Assembly (NCBI GenBank): GCA_032622095.1
Contig: CP136061.1
Span: forward strand, 89,582,983 to 89,646,982
DNA from: Siphonodentalium dalli
Lineage: Eukaryota > Mollusca > Scaphopoda > Gadilida > Siphonodentaliidae
Direction of reading: 5' to 3'
Length of the DNA: 64,000 nucleotides
Below the pieces are notes generated by a model. The model searched no databases and had not been told where the DNA came from. It saw only the letters and a program-made list of their open reading frames with translations. Below, piece by piece: positions 1,898-23,100 of this stretch. The translations under genes were made by a program, and so were the position numbers. Numbering within the stretch: position 1 is the stretch's first letter; each line of letters begins with the position of its first letter.

Positions 1898-2101
1898 CTT
1901 GGTGCTATATTGATGAGCGGCTCAGGTAGATAGAATGGAAAACTGTATGATAGGAACTCATCGTTACTGCTGACTCCAGGTAACGTCGCCTCCGTCGGTG
2001 TGCCCAGTGTTTTAAAAATTAAATTCAGCTCATCCTCCACAGTGGACCCAGGAAACAGCGCTCGACCACACGCCATTTCATAAAATATACAACCTACGCC
2101 C
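1898..2101 (-). CDS. CDK16/17/18-like: PCTAIRE kinase exon: [10 protein letters not shown]...PLINIAPR
   Basis: 204 bp, 67 codons plus split ends: [67 protein letters not shown]. This is the C-lobe (helices F-G region). The acceptor is TTTTCAG|GGGC and the donor CCAAG|GTTCGT, a weak donor. The normally conserved Trp of TEETWPG is Leu. The acceptor end is repeated five or so times upstream (2102-2430), and the first ~60 bases recur at 9349-9415. Confidence 0.95.
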
Positions 2102-5100
2102 CTGAAAACATGCAGGAAGAAAATAGTCAGTTATGTGCCATTTCATAAAATATACCATCTACGCCGCTGGAAATATGCAGGAAGATAATGGCCAAATATG
2201 TGCCATTTCATAAAATATACAACCTACGCCACTGGAAATATGCAGCAAGATAATGACAATTTTGTGCCATTTCATAAAATATACAACCTGGGCCCCTCGA
2301 AGATAATGTGCCATTTTATAAAACATACAATCTATACCACTGGAAAAAATACAATAATAAATGTTCATGAAATATTCACAGTAGACCCTCGACTACATGC
2401 CATTTCATAAAAGATGCAATATACATCCATGAAAATATAGAGGAAAACAGTTAACTGTGTGCCATCTGAGGGTTTATATGAATGTGTGTACTACAGTAAT
2501 GCTCTAAGTAATCGACTCCTTAACCACAGCAGAATTATGGGTAACTTTTCAGGATTTAGTCGGAAATATGGCTTGTTGCCATTCATCGGAAAGCTCTCCC
2601 CGGGATCTTTCCGATGAATGGCAACAAGCCATATTTCCGACTAAATCCTGAAAAGTTACCCATAATTCTGCTGTGGTTAAGGAGTCGATTACTTAGAGCA
2701 TTACTGTACATAAGATAGATGTTAGCACACATTTCTGAGCTGTGTACTTAGCTTAATTCATTTTACATTAACCCTTTCATAGCTCCAGTCATGGAATGGT
2801 TAATACACAATCAGAAATGTTTAATTTGGTTGAAAATAATATTATGTGGAGTGCTTTATTACAATTTGCCCGACCAAATTACATTCATAATCCTTCAAGT
2901 TAAATAATACATACATCAGTTTCTTAAATAATACATACATCAGTTTCTTAAATAATACATACATCAGTTTCTTAAATAATACATACATCAGTTTCTTAAA
3001 TCAATGGAATGTTTTGAGGTAATATAGAGTTTAAGACTTACCACATGTCTATAGGAGTAGAGTATTCTGTACAACCCATTAAGACATCTGGTGGCCTATA
3101 CCTGGAAGATACAAAAGGAAGATTGCAATAAGCAGTGTTAGCATTTGGCAATGAATTCTCACACCCACATTAAAGTAGAAACTACTTATTTAGAAATTTG
3201 GTTGCTTGAACTGGCAACATTGTATGTCACAATGCAAACATTTCAAGATCAACAAAGATGAATAACTCTAGAACGGAAAATCCGAACAAAACAATTGAAT
3301 GTTCTCATAGTAGTTAACATTCATACCAAATGTTATTGAGATCCGAGCACTACTGTTCAAGTTATGGCCTGAACAGACATCGGATGGACCAAAAAGCCAA
3401 TATTTTCAGATAAACAAAGATGAATAACTCTAGAATGAAAAACCCGAACAAAACAATTTCAAGAACCCTTTATTGAATGTCCTAAACGTAGTGAAATTAT
3501 ATACCAAATTTCATTGAGATCCGAGCACTACTGTGCAAGTTATGACCTGAACAGACATCAGACGGATGTACGGACGCCCCCATGGACAAAACAGTATACA
3601 CCCTCATTTTTTAATGTCAATGACACTGTAGCTCAACTTGGAAAGGGAATAATTTAATGTATTACAGTCAATGGAGCGATTAGGAATATGGAAAGTTGAA
3701 TGTCTAATACTAGTTTATAGACATGAAGAGAAAAGTAAAATCCATGTTTTCGGCCGAATGACCCCAAAATGAGTCGTTCCCATCAACATGTCATCATTAA
3801 CATCCATGACAAATTTTATGACGTTCAGACTAAAGGTACGACCTGTAGCCCGTGCTAAAAAATTTAGTCATACAAAGAGTAAAATACAAGATGGCTGCTG
3901 GCGGCCATGTTTTTTGGCCAAATGACCCCAAAATTACTCGTTCCCATCTACATTCCAATTTCAACAGCCATGACAAATTTTATGATGATCAGACTAAAGG
4001 TACGACCTGTAGCCCGTGCTAAAGGATTTAGTCATACAAAGAGTAAAATCAAAGATGGCTGCTGGCGGCCATGTTTTTTGGCCGAATGACCCTAAAATGA
4101 CTCGTTCCCATCTACATGTCATTATTAACATTCATGACAATTTAATGATGATCAGACTAAAGGTACAACCTGTAGCCCATGCTAAAGGATTTAGTCATAC
4201 AAAGAGTAAAATCCAAGATGGCTGCTGGCGGCCATGTTTTTTGGCCTTTTTGGCCAAATGACCCCAAAATTACTCTTTCCCATCTACATGTCAATATTAA
4301 CATCCATGACAAATTTCATGATGATCAGACTAACAGTATGACCTGTGGCCCATGCTAATGGATTAAATTTTTTAATCCAAGATGGCCACTGGCGGCCATG
4401 TTTTTTGTCCGAATGACCCCAAAATGACTCGTTTCCATCTACATTCCAATTTCAACAGCCATGACAAATTTTATGATGATCAGACTAAAGGTACGACCTG
4501 TAGCCCGTGCTAAAGGATTTAGTCATACAAAGAGTAAAATCAAAGATGGCTGCTGGCGGCCATGTTTTTTGGCCGAATGACCCTAAAATGACTCGTTCCC
4601 ATCTACATGTCATTATTAACATTCATGACAATTTAATGATGATCAGACTAAAGGTACAACCTGTAGCCCATGCTAAAGGATTTAGTCATACAAAGAGTAA
4701 AATCCAAGATGGCTGCTGGCGGCCATGTTTTTTGGCCTTTTTGGCCAAATGACCCCAAAATTACTCTTTCCCATCTACATGTCAATATTAACATCCATGA
4801 CAAATTTCATGATGATCAGACTAACAGTATGACCTGTGGCCCATGCTAATGGATTAAATTTTTTAATCCAAGATGGCCACTGGCGGCCATGTTTTTTGTC
4901 CGAATGACCCCAAAATGACTCGTTTCCATCTACATTCCAATTTCAACAGCCATGACAAATTTTATGATGATCAGACTAAAGGTACGACCTGTAGCCCGTG
5001 CTAAAGGATTTAGTCATACAAAGAGTAAAATCAAAGATGGCTGCTGGTGGCCATGTTTTTGGGCCGAATGACCCCAAAATGACTCGTTCCCATCTACATG

Positions 5101-20100: not shown

Positions 20101-23100
20101 ACGGATATCTGCAGGCAATGACAATCGCTTCGTCACCTCCTAAAATGCAAAGATAGACATAACAGATATCTGCAGGCAATGACAATCGCTTCGTCACCTC
20201 CTAAAATGCAAAGATAGACATAAATTATTTCTGGACAGAAAATTGTCAGGAAGACGGATATCTGCAGGCAATGGCAATCACTTCGTCACCTCCTAAAATG
20301 CAAAGATAGACATAAATAAATTATTAACTCTTTTCTATACTAAATACCCATTGACGAGTAGTTCCCTTAGTAATTGTCCAGAAAATAAGTTCAACAAACG
20401 ACAATATGTCATTTGTTGAACTTATTATCTGAACATTTCCCTCCAATATATAGGACTACTTCTGCACTTGTATAATCTGTTGTCTGTTTATCTTTCCTGA
20501 AAAACCCCTCCAGATGAATAATAAACCATTCTAATGTTTACTTTCATAATTGAACGGGAGAATCCACTTAGTAAAGAAATGGATAAGAGATAACAGCTTC
20601 CTCACTTACAGGCCTACAGTGATGCTCTAATTAATCGACCTCTTAACCACAGCAGAATTATGGGTAACATTTCAGGATTTAGTCCGAAATATGGCTTGTT
20701 GCCATTCATCGAAAAGCTCTCGCTGAGAGCTTTCCGATGAATGGCTACAAGCCATATTTCCGACTAAATCCTGAAAAATTACCCATAATTCTGCTGTGGT
20801 TAAGTGGTCAATTACTTTGGGCATTACTGTAATGTACAGGCCTACTTAACTTTCGAACCTCCAGATAATTTTTTTCCACATAATTAACCCACAAAACCAG
20901 TTTCATAATTATTGGTAAGACACACGTGTAATATTACCGCGTGCAATGACGTCACGCCATTATTTAAATGACTTGCGATTGCTGATGTTTATGATTGTTG
21001 TTTTCGATGAATACTTCGGGTTGCTTCGCGTTTATTTGATCATGTGATAAAAGGTATCTCAAACTCGTTCTATTTTATACGTAATTTATCAACCTCGTCC
21101 ACTAAATTCTATTTGAGCCTCCGTAAACCTCGGCTCAAATCGAATTTAGTGAACTCCGTATAAAATAGAAACTCATGTGAGATGCTCTATATATAAAATA
21201 TATGCCATATTATATACAATTTGAAAGAGGAATCTCCAAAACAATATCAACATAATCTGTGAACATGTTGTTTTTGTTGAGATTTCGTCATGTGTTCTGA
21301 GCTCAAGTTTCATTTTTTTCAATGGAAGGGGAATAACTCTATATCTTAAGATATAGTGTTATTCCCCTTCCATTGAAAATAATTTTTTAGTTTGAATTCT
21401 GTTGCATTCTGGGAGCCATAACGGTGGAAATGTTTCTATGATTTCAACTGTTTTCTATTTCTCGATGGGCACCATCTGAGCAGGCCTCAGCTTGTAGGTT
21501 GACAATAGGGAGTAGTGACTTCTCCCTCTGGGAATTTCAGGGAGAAGTGAAGGAGAAATAGGGAGAAGTGGGGAGAGTCAAATCCGTAATATTTACCGGA
21601 TATTTGTTAAATCTTTGGAAATCAACACAAAATTGCTTCTGAAGAACACCATAAGTACCATAAAGTTAGAGGGTTTCTCCTCCCATGGGACAATGGGATT
21701 AGTATAACATACCATAAAGTTAACAGGTAATTAGTGCATGATCATAAACTTAATCACCATGCAGAGGTGTCAATTAATGCAGAGGTGTCATAAATACTAT
21801 ATGGGCTGGCCTCACAGTTCACACCATTTATGATCAGCATTGAATTGTGAGGTTAATAATAGGTGTCAATAGACTGATCAAGTTGTTTATTATAAAGATA
21901 AAGGAGTTCTAACTGAACTGACACAAAGCATGCACAGTATGTCTGAATTGCAAGGCCCTATTTTCTATTTGAAAAAAAAAAAATTGTAAAAAAAAAAAAA
22001 AAAATTTTTTAGGGAGACTTCCACTTCTCCCTAGAGTCTCCCTAGGACGAAATCGGCGGCCCTAGGGCGAGAACTTCGCCCTAGTCGCCCCCTAAGCTGA
22101 GGACTGCATCTGAGACACAGACATTCCCAATGGTGATGAATTATAGTATATTTATAATATTTTATGGCATCGATTTGTTATTAAAACAATATTTCAAGGC
22201 ACTATAAAAAAAATCATAATCAGGGACTCGAAAATTAAGTGGGCCTTTAACTAGTAATATTCAATAGTACTGCTATTCTCAAAGTAATTGACCAGGGGGG
22301 GGGGTGGAATAAATCCAAAATGATTTGAACTATGTGGAATAGCAAGAGAAATATGTTGATATTGGAAAATCATCTATAAAAAAAAAAAGTATATCGTCCC
22401 ATGTGTTTATAAATGCGAGTTTATATTACGACCTGTCGCATTCAGAACAAGCCCACGTGACATTTTTGTGACGTGTTTAGTGTTTGGGGAAGTTCCTTTG
22501 CTGACGTCATCGTGGGTCATATTGTCAAATTGTGTTCAACCACGTGCTTATGTTTTTGTTTGCTTCTTATAAATGTCAAATTGTAAGCGTCCACATTTGT
22601 CAAATTTCCATGTTGACATATTACGGCAATAAAACAATCTATCTATATACATGTAGCAGATGCATACGGACTGTTCCCAACCCACATGTCTTTATAACAG
22701 GACGCGCATGTGTCGTCATAATCATCAGGATAATCTCACTTATAAATAACCATACACGACCTCCCCGTGTGCCTGTAAAAGTAGACGAATCTGGTTCCAA
22801 TTAAGCCGTGTTTCCATGACGTTCGTGCATGATATCGTCAGGGTTATCTCATTATTAGGGATCGCACAACCTACTCACAAGAATAGTAATTCTTTTCTGC
22901 CGGTCTCGATATTGGCACCATATATTTCTGTTTTAATAATGACAATAAAACCACACAAAATAAATCAAATTGCATTGGAGATTGATAAAGTTGGGAATAT
23001 CGGTAAGAATTGTTGTTTCCCCACCCGCACTATTATTTGGGTCAATCAGATAATTCTTACCTACCTGTACCCTGCAGCGCAACTAAAACTGCTATGCATT

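Follow-up and report, generated by a model that had tools for sequence, protein, structure and literature searches.

Local tandem copies of splice junctions in a PCTAIRE-kinase gene and their frequency at exon edges of other genes

Introduction

A gene in which several exon edges are accompanied by near-copies of themselves raises the question of whether tandem duplications begin preferentially at exon-intron junctions or persist there because spare splice sites are tolerated. Both possibilities were offered by the initial annotation of the window, i.e. the whole stretch of 64,000 nucleotides analysed, in which six of ten PCTAIRE-kinase exons were thought to carry a duplication at an end or in their body. 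We mapped the exons and copies of this gene and compared its junctions with those of 160 exons of other genes in the same genome.

Results

Between positions 1898 and 20078 of the window, the minus strand carries a CDK16/17/18-type (PCTAIRE) kinase gene, of which nine exons, all in frame, were mapped. Exon E1 (19962..20078), placed by its splice signals (ttttag/GAG and CTG/gtgaga) and by the alignment with CDK16, ends in the translation RRKSL. It is followed by E2 (18822..18878), E3 (17654..17768), which carries the PCTAIRE motif, and E4 (11216..11310), all three from exon mapping; by E5 (10934..10996), E6 (9733..9856), E7 (8371..8431) and E8 (3042..3101), which have no junction copy; and by E9 (1898..2101), placed by exon mapping and the CDK16 alignment. 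Ten exons had been claimed; nine were mapped within the window and two others outside it, one just beyond the edge at -31 to -73 and the other, a late one, at -4960 to -5037. Joined together, the nine exons translate into 298 residues without a stop. The closest match among solved structures is CDK16 (E 3.6e-159), with CDK5 second (4.9e-95), and the alignment with the CDK16 chain contains just two small gaps of 1 and 2 residues. The motif and the full-length similarity to CDK16 place the product among the CDK16/17/18 kinases and bear out the proposed identity. Among the candidates scored, matches of 93–99% identity were confined to this gene. A pseudogene copy was rejected on the basis of these matches, the open nine-exon frame and the similarity to CDK16, and the gene appears to be ordinary and functional.

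Three acceptors and one donor of the gene are clearly duplicated in the window, all on the minus strand. The E1 acceptor is repeated with a 61 bp unit (20022..20317), with the authentic AG at 20078 and AG copies at 20139, 20200 and 20292. At the E3 acceptor (17759..17878), 49 identical bp recur 71 bp apart with a spare AG before 17839, and at the E2 donor (18760..18835), 27 identical bp recur 49 bp apart with a spare GT after 18773. The E9 acceptor array (2072..2419), built on a 65 bp unit, contains the authentic site and three copies with AG (before 2166, 2231 and 2295), then degenerate pieces upstream to 2419. This array is found again, along with roughly the initial 59 bp of E9, in the E6-E7 intron (9348..9624), 7.3 kb from the original. 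The copy of the E4 body in the following intron (11139..11200; 62 bp, 84%, 93 bp away) lacks a donor copy. The copy scores were 54 for the E1 acceptor, 40 for the E3 acceptor, 38 for the E9 acceptor and 27 for the E2 donor, the threshold being 18 and the highest of 80 shuffled controls reaching 11; the E4 donor, at 11, falls below the threshold. Outside the window, the late exon of the same gene has a clear donor copy (score 27), and E10 has a weak copy of the exon start (23 bp, 91%, 46 bp away), whose score of 10 is below the threshold.

Most of the individual duplications initially described were thus recovered, namely the fourfold E1 acceptor, the twofold E3 acceptor, the twofold E2 donor and the E4 body, as were the unit sizes of 23, 49, 61, 65, 71 and 93 bp; the E9 acceptor is duplicated, with four clear copies instead of about six. 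Five of the six duplications named (at E1, E2, E3, E4 and E9) are genuine. The sixth case, a supposed donor-like array at 17654, is a 23-bp minisatellite of about 20 copies (17184..17652) that merely adjoins the E3 donor: it begins at intron base 2, its donor copy score is 13, it contains no copy of the exon end, and arrays resembling it (67–74%) are present elsewhere in the genome.

Local duplication is not confined to the junctions. At a threshold of 16, 95 local-duplication pairs were observed, compared with none at the lower threshold of 14 once the dinucleotides of the 21 kb had been shuffled a single time. Fifteen clusters were found in positions 1-21000, of which five touch a kinase exon and one abuts one. 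The other nine, which include two large 164-bp satellite arrays, do not bear out the impression that intron interiors are poorer in such units. By DNA search of the genome, within its reach, the E1 stretch has no second place and the E9 stretch has a single other place, inside the same gene; a single dispersed repeat family was rejected as their source, but the 23-bp array may belong to one. The duplications can be regarded as independent events, as originally suggested, because their unit sizes differ and because the E1 and E9 stretches were not found in other genes.

At E1, E2, E3 and E9, eight recognisable spare splice sites (AG or GT) are present, and all eight lead to an early stop. Scored with splice-site weight tables, the spare sites at E1, E2 and E3 are as strong as the authentic ones, and the E1 and E3 spare acceptors score exactly the same as the authentic acceptor. 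None of the copies found amounts to a complete exon with an open frame and an acceptor and donor of its own, such as mutually exclusive tandem exons would show.

The sample of 160 exons, taken with 600 bases on each side, consists of two sets. The kinesin set holds 80 of 123 matches listed in order of E-value, with the near-identical C6/C7 paralogues mostly omitted. The second set was hand-picked from the matches found (55 of 152 for PTP, 11 of 13 for Aldedh and 14 of 85 for myosin), with most PTP paralogues in tandem on C5 omitted; some paralogous exons remain in the sample (e.g. L133, L135, L136 and L137). The exon edges are predictions from two junction callers, the second of which altered an edge at 28 of the 160 loci. 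When seven loci were read by hand, the first caller had missed the L010 donor, found by the second, and had placed the L061 donor too far downstream. Because low-complexity windows and windows too close to an end are skipped, 158 acceptors and 159 donors were scored.

Copies were found at 16/159 donors and 5/158 acceptors (Fisher p 0.022). Twenty of the 160 exons, about one in eight, score at least 18 at either end (L160 at both), L051, L033, L065, L091 and L125 being examples of loci with junction copies. A single side of the junction can suffice for a score of 18: the array at L075 adjoins the acceptor but holds no copy of the AG, and the exon bases shared number 3 at L104, 4 at L010 and 9 at L076. 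Nearby intron windows carry copies in 3–12% of cases depending on the criterion (4–12% unmasked, 3–9% with recurrent repeats masked). The pooled junctions (21/317) fall inside this range, and the preference for exon edges does not hold as it was stated. Relative to same-side windows, donors stand at 0.9–2.7 times background and acceptors at 0.3–0.7 times. Under a strict definition of tandem coverage, 14/160 donors are covered against 6.3 expected (p 0.0003, about 2.2-fold; 8 against 3.5 in the kinesin set and 6 against 2.8 in the other), and 4/160 acceptors against 9.0; a donor array at L049 lies outside this count. In this sample, junctions therefore show a donor-only excess at most, with acceptors below background, whereas the clear cases of the kinase gene in the window are three acceptors and one donor. 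The acceptor shortage depends on the criterion: with 80-base flanks and masking, 5/155 acceptors compare with 27/522 upstream and 16/484 downstream windows.

A prior forecast for the second set (about 8 or more donors of 80 and about 4 acceptors) was right in direction but not in size, with 6 donors and 3 acceptors at first and 6 and 2 with the second junction caller. Junction copies were not clustered beyond expectation among 86 gene groups, most of which comprised a single exon or a few (p 0.27). A comparison was possible for 15 of the 16 donor cases: exon parts of the pairs have 36 mismatches in 538 positions, 22 of them from L126, and intron parts 52 in 1378. The idea that junction pairs look younger through constraint on one copy was not supported.

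Discussion

The locus is probably an ordinary kinase gene in which local tandem duplications in non-coding DNA are filtered by selection through splicing. The non-coding DNA of a lophotrochozoan-like animal might continually gain short local tandem duplications, and by chance some of their units would cover an exon edge. Because the copy closest to the exon still serves, the exon itself would remain intact, and the extra copies would form a small intronic minisatellite, or 'mirage', to which repeated unequal exchange could add further units. Splicing would take the exon-proximal authentic site, and transcripts from a wrong choice would be lost as nonsense, because the use of a spare site leads to an early stop. 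Selection might then tolerate extra donors downstream and more often purge extra acceptors upstream, and the donor-over-acceptor asymmetry is compatible with such a filter. Toleration of spare splice sites, as initially proposed, would accordingly fit the donors, but acceptors appear to be selected against.

Several observations count against this account. Strong copies are present at 3/11 kinase acceptors compared with 5/158 sampled ones (nominal P 0.0043), and with E1 and E3 spares that score equally, a simple acceptor-purging rule fails here. In the tandem-coverage test, the donor excess goes beyond what neutrality alone would give. The dependence of the acceptor shortage on the criterion, and the failure of junction pairs to look younger, also weigh against it.

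The donor excess, seen in both sets, could instead suggest that exon-intron edges are preferred starting points of duplication, for example if donor sequences or co-transcriptional structures promoted template switching. The proportion of clusters that touch or abut a kinase exon, although exons make up less than 5% of the sequence, points the same way. However, acceptors lie under background (5/158 against 12% in unmasked windows), and a general edge preference is therefore absent. Even for donors, the excess vanishes when wide flanks are used and dispersed repeats are kept in the control (10.1% against 12%), and it is not significant with periods of at most 250 and lengths of at least half a period (14 against 10.6, p 0.10). 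We consider birth at edges unlikely.

A raised duplication rate at the kinase locus, with a local cause common to its junction copies, seems improbable to a similar degree. The gene is an outlier, with copies at 5/22 junctions compared with 21/317 sampled (nominal P 0.013), and both the second E9 array in another of its introns and the donor copy at its late exon could be taken as signs of instability. It was, however, picked for being extreme, many genes would reach P 0.01 among an assumed 10,000 or more, and the gene groups of the sample gave no sign of clustering.

The spare sites might also be used, the arrays acting as regulatory elements that set a tunable fraction of nonsense transcripts and lower the kinase output. 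The scores at E1, E2 and E3 and the stops behind every spare site agree with such a role, but stops are mostly expected from random additional intron sequence, such arrays are not confined to the kinase gene, and those of lancelets were reported, in the parts of the source consulted, not to interfere with regular splicing (PMC3087553); we regard this as very unlikely. False local duplications from assembly are extremely improbable: repeats are a usual place for such errors, but copies in many arrays differ by several per cent, unit lengths vary from case to case, and contigs of 190–301 Mb suggest long reads able to span the arrays.

For the kinase gene alone, the finding is an otherwise ordinary one. 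A broader reading, which we hold as rather doubtful, is that junction minisatellites are widespread in this genome, that the donor excess and the acceptor shortage are both real, and that donor edges are perhaps hot spots. If so, near-identical splice sites would compete in thousands of natural experiments across the genome. With many identical sites tens of bases apart, the spliceosome's choice among copies, and the grounds for it, could be examined directly.

Comparison with known systems

The genome comprises 9 contigs with a total of 2.23 Gb. A muscle myosin exon (L145) scores 141–145 bits with myosins from PDB entries that we take to be of scallop and squid, 125 bits with the best other entry (3jbh) and about 120 with a presumably human cardiac myosin. 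From this one exon, the host is probably not a lancelet but lophotrochozoan-like; the haemocyanin family PF14830 had no match among the 3 candidates scored, which does not show absence.

Tandemly duplicated, mutually exclusive exons also place extra exon sequence beside an exon, but the kinase copies are never complete and their spare acceptors lead to stops. In the AGGT proto-splice-site model of intron gain (cf. PMC2891723, PMC4974935), tandem duplication creates extra AG and GT signals. The kinase gene likewise has extra AG and GT in its tandem copies; in contrast to that model, no new intron is apparent, and the copies sit in introns between exons that align with CDK16.

Judged from their sequence, the kinase-gene structures most resemble the 'mirages' of lancelets. 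In the portions consulted, these are described as tandem units across an acceptor or donor, of 10–72 bp in Adh3 and 150–160 bp in globins, in which many copies retain AG or GT next to an intact authentic exon, with undisturbed splicing and length polymorphism, e.g. 3 units in one BflGb6 haplotype and 6 in another (PMC3087553, PMC3902484). The E1, E3 and E9 acceptors and the E2 donor likewise span the boundary, which the 23-bp array (13) and E4 (11) do not. Their units of 49, 61, 65 and 71 bp lie within the variable range of 10–160 bp, and the spare sites retain AG or GT. They differ in belonging to a genome of lophotrochozoan affinity, outside the cephalochordates to which reports have so far been limited (a matter of range, not of structure), and in affecting several junctions of one gene. 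The mirage structure itself is already known; new here are the lineage, the measured frequency and the donor-over-acceptor asymmetry. Intron gain has been put forward as something that mirages may later give rise to (PMC3087553), and the frequency in a probable non-lancelet, together with the asymmetry, would allow the 'mirage' route to new introns and exons to be tested genome-wide.

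Structure of the kinase gene

The kinase gene runs on the minus strand, and its nine exons in the window, E1 (20078-19962), E2 (18878-18822), E3 (17768-17654), E4 (11310-11216), E5 (10996-10934), E6 (9856-9733), E7 (8431-8371), E8 (3101-3042) and E9 (2101-1898), all carry acceptor and donor signals and join into 298 residues in frame without a stop codon. The joined protein contains the PCTAIRE motif; its top match among solved structures was CDK16 (residues 2-298, E 3.6e-159), and the next kind was CDK5 (E 4.9e-95). Of the candidates scored when the genome was searched with this protein, those with 93-99% identity all belonged to this gene; other kinases reached 64% in short exons and 38-43% where the match was longer. 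Beyond the window edge (negative positions), two more exons of the same gene were located, one (RLDSEGLDLLGKFLL) at -31 to -73 and another, late in the gene, at -4960 to -5037; an exon expected between these two was not found. Elsewhere, G000:C2:149826753-150603706 holds ~95 protein kinase matches, all except one on the minus strand, spaced by 2.1-2.9 kb and with mostly equal or nearly equal scores, a large tandem cluster that seems recent.

Duplications at junctions and in an exon body

The initial annotation had described splice junctions and an exon body of this gene as locally duplicated. The acceptor copies at E9, E1 and E3 and the donor copy at E2 were confirmed with Tandem Repeats Finder and a self-comparison without gaps, two methods that agreed for the longer arrays. 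After a single dinucleotide shuffle of the 21 kb compared, the self-comparison yielded zero pairs. The E9 unit (65 bp) comprises the pyrimidine tract, the AG and the initial 30 exon bases, and that of E1 (61 bp) the pyrimidine tract, the AG and the exon start, with four AG copies altogether. E3 has two 49-bp copies spaced by 71 bp, and the E2 donor two identical 27-bp pieces spaced by 49 bp, each with the exon end and GTGAGT. The body duplication of E4 is likewise real, a 62-bp copy (84%) lying in the next intron. Outside the window, a 23-bp copy of the start of E10 lies 46 bases upstream (-12 to 10), and the late-exon region (-4960 to -5150) has a diverged donor copy 3' of the exon. The E9 array recurs with ~59 bases of E9 at 9348-9624 in the E6-E7 intron, 7.3 kb away; a DNA search found no third place.

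The putative donor-like array at E3 (17654) fared differently. This 23-bp array (17184-17652) starts at intron position 2, lacks any copy of the exon end and has related sequences at several places in the genome, and is therefore not counted as a junction duplication. Arrays of 23-bp units 71-74% related to it lie at G000:C7:175575003-175576119 and G000:C7:176172723-176175059, where the matches step by ~230 bp.

Other repeats were also observed. The E7-E8 and E3-E4 introns each contain an array of one and the same 164-bp satellite, in opposite orientation (3742-6929 and 13510-15928, respectively), with a higher-order unit of 483-491 bp, presumably resembling bivalve mobile elements with ~160-bp tandem repeats. 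A palindromic dispersed element of ~185 bases has many copies in the window, also appearing as repeated reading frames (2508-2692, 18100-18304, 19292-19476, 20614-20763, 23697-23955 and others), and a run of 49 G lies at 58888-58936.

Predicted effect of spare splice sites

Each authentic site was swapped for each spare one (three acceptors at E9, one at E3 and three at E1; one donor at E2) and the result translated, the phase of E1 being taken from the CDK16 alignment. All eight spare sites led to a stop codon, which lay 12-126 bases inside the altered exon or downstream of the authentic donor. Splice-site scores of spare and authentic sites were equal in E1, E2 and E3; the spare acceptors of E9 scored lower (7.8, 5.6 and 1.6 versus 9.8). 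Conservation of the coding sequence implies that splicing presumably relies on the authentic sites, to a good extent at the least.

Junctions of other genes

We sampled 160 exons in 86 gene groups of this genome (2.23 Gb, nine contigs) with 600 bases on each side, the first set being 80 kinesin exons and the second 80 exons of PTP (55), aldehyde dehydrogenase (11) and myosin (14). The copy score, for which the threshold was 18, compares 60 bases around a junction with 250 bases to each side of it and may arise from a single side of the junction, as in exon L075; 80 shuffled controls scored at most 11. Positives comprised 16/159 donors and 5/158 acceptors, and 20 of the 160 exons had a copy at one end at least. 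Examples include a donor array of ~18 copies of a 34-bp unit (L051), junction arrays with units of 90, 80 and 66 bp (L033, L065 and L091), an acceptor array with a 102-bp unit (L125) and an exon with arrays at both ends (L160). One muscle myosin exon scored 141-145 bits against myosins that we take to be from squid and scallop, 125 against the best other and ~120 against a cardiac myosin, presumably human. By this exon and its size, the genome is probably not that of a lancelet; the affinity may equally fit annelids, brachiopods or other lophotrochozoans. A muscle-type myosin exon occurs in 11 copies over 1.3 Mb at G000:C4:274219458-275508405, with several further copies on contigs C4 and C5.

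By copy score, 5/22 kinase junctions had a copy (the E1, E3 and E9 acceptors and the E2 and late-exon donors) versus 21/317 in the sample (P 0.013), and 3/11 kinase acceptors versus 5/158 (P 0.0043), both P values being nominal and uncorrected for the choice of a gene that was reported because it looked extreme. Junction copies showed no excess clustering among the sampled genes (p 0.27, 86 gene groups).

The background was taken from intron windows 150-330 bases away from the exon. Unmasked, 75/621 upstream and 72/613 downstream windows were positive (12%), and 45/522 and 38/484 after masking of repeats recurring among loci. With masking and 120-base flanks, the windows gave 32/522 upstream and 21/484 downstream versus 15/158 donors and 5/155 acceptors; with 80-base flanks, 27/522 and 16/484 versus 14/158 and 5/155. 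A stricter measure required the base to lie inside a tandem cluster (period 15-150, matched length at least 0.6 of the period) and counted 14/160 donors versus 6.3 expected (p 0.0003; kinesin 8 versus 3.5, second set 6 versus 2.8) and 4/160 acceptors versus 9.0 (p for as few 0.005). In a first run, whose junction calls were cruder, donors numbered 13 versus 6.0 and acceptors 5 versus 8.9; when the settings were relaxed (period up to 250, fraction 0.5), the donor excess was not significant (14 versus 10.6). By copy score, donors had copies more often than acceptors (Fisher p 0.022). Pooled junctions are thus near the background, with donors level with it or somewhat higher and acceptors mostly lower, and the proposal that duplications start preferentially at exon edges, for which a genome-wide enrichment at junctions had been suggested as a check, is not supported as a general preference in this 160-exon sample.

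Proposed origin and comparison with known systems

Throughout the non-coding DNA of this genome, local tandem duplications most likely arise frequently. A unit that happens to span an exon edge would leave the exon working, and unequal exchange might then add units. Extra donors would fall inside the intron, 3' of the authentic donor. Extra acceptors would fall 5' of the authentic acceptor as its competitors. Such competition could account for the shortage of acceptor copies, though not for the three strong acceptor arrays of the kinase gene.

Among the titles and abstract openings searched, we recognised no report of boundary minisatellites beyond lancelets. There, minisatellites with units spanning the exon-intron boundary are called mirages, for which the lancelet globin paper (PMC3087553) is the source. 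A further paper (PMC3902484) describes 60- and 108-bp repeats across splice sites of lancelet PGBD5 and also cites troponin C.
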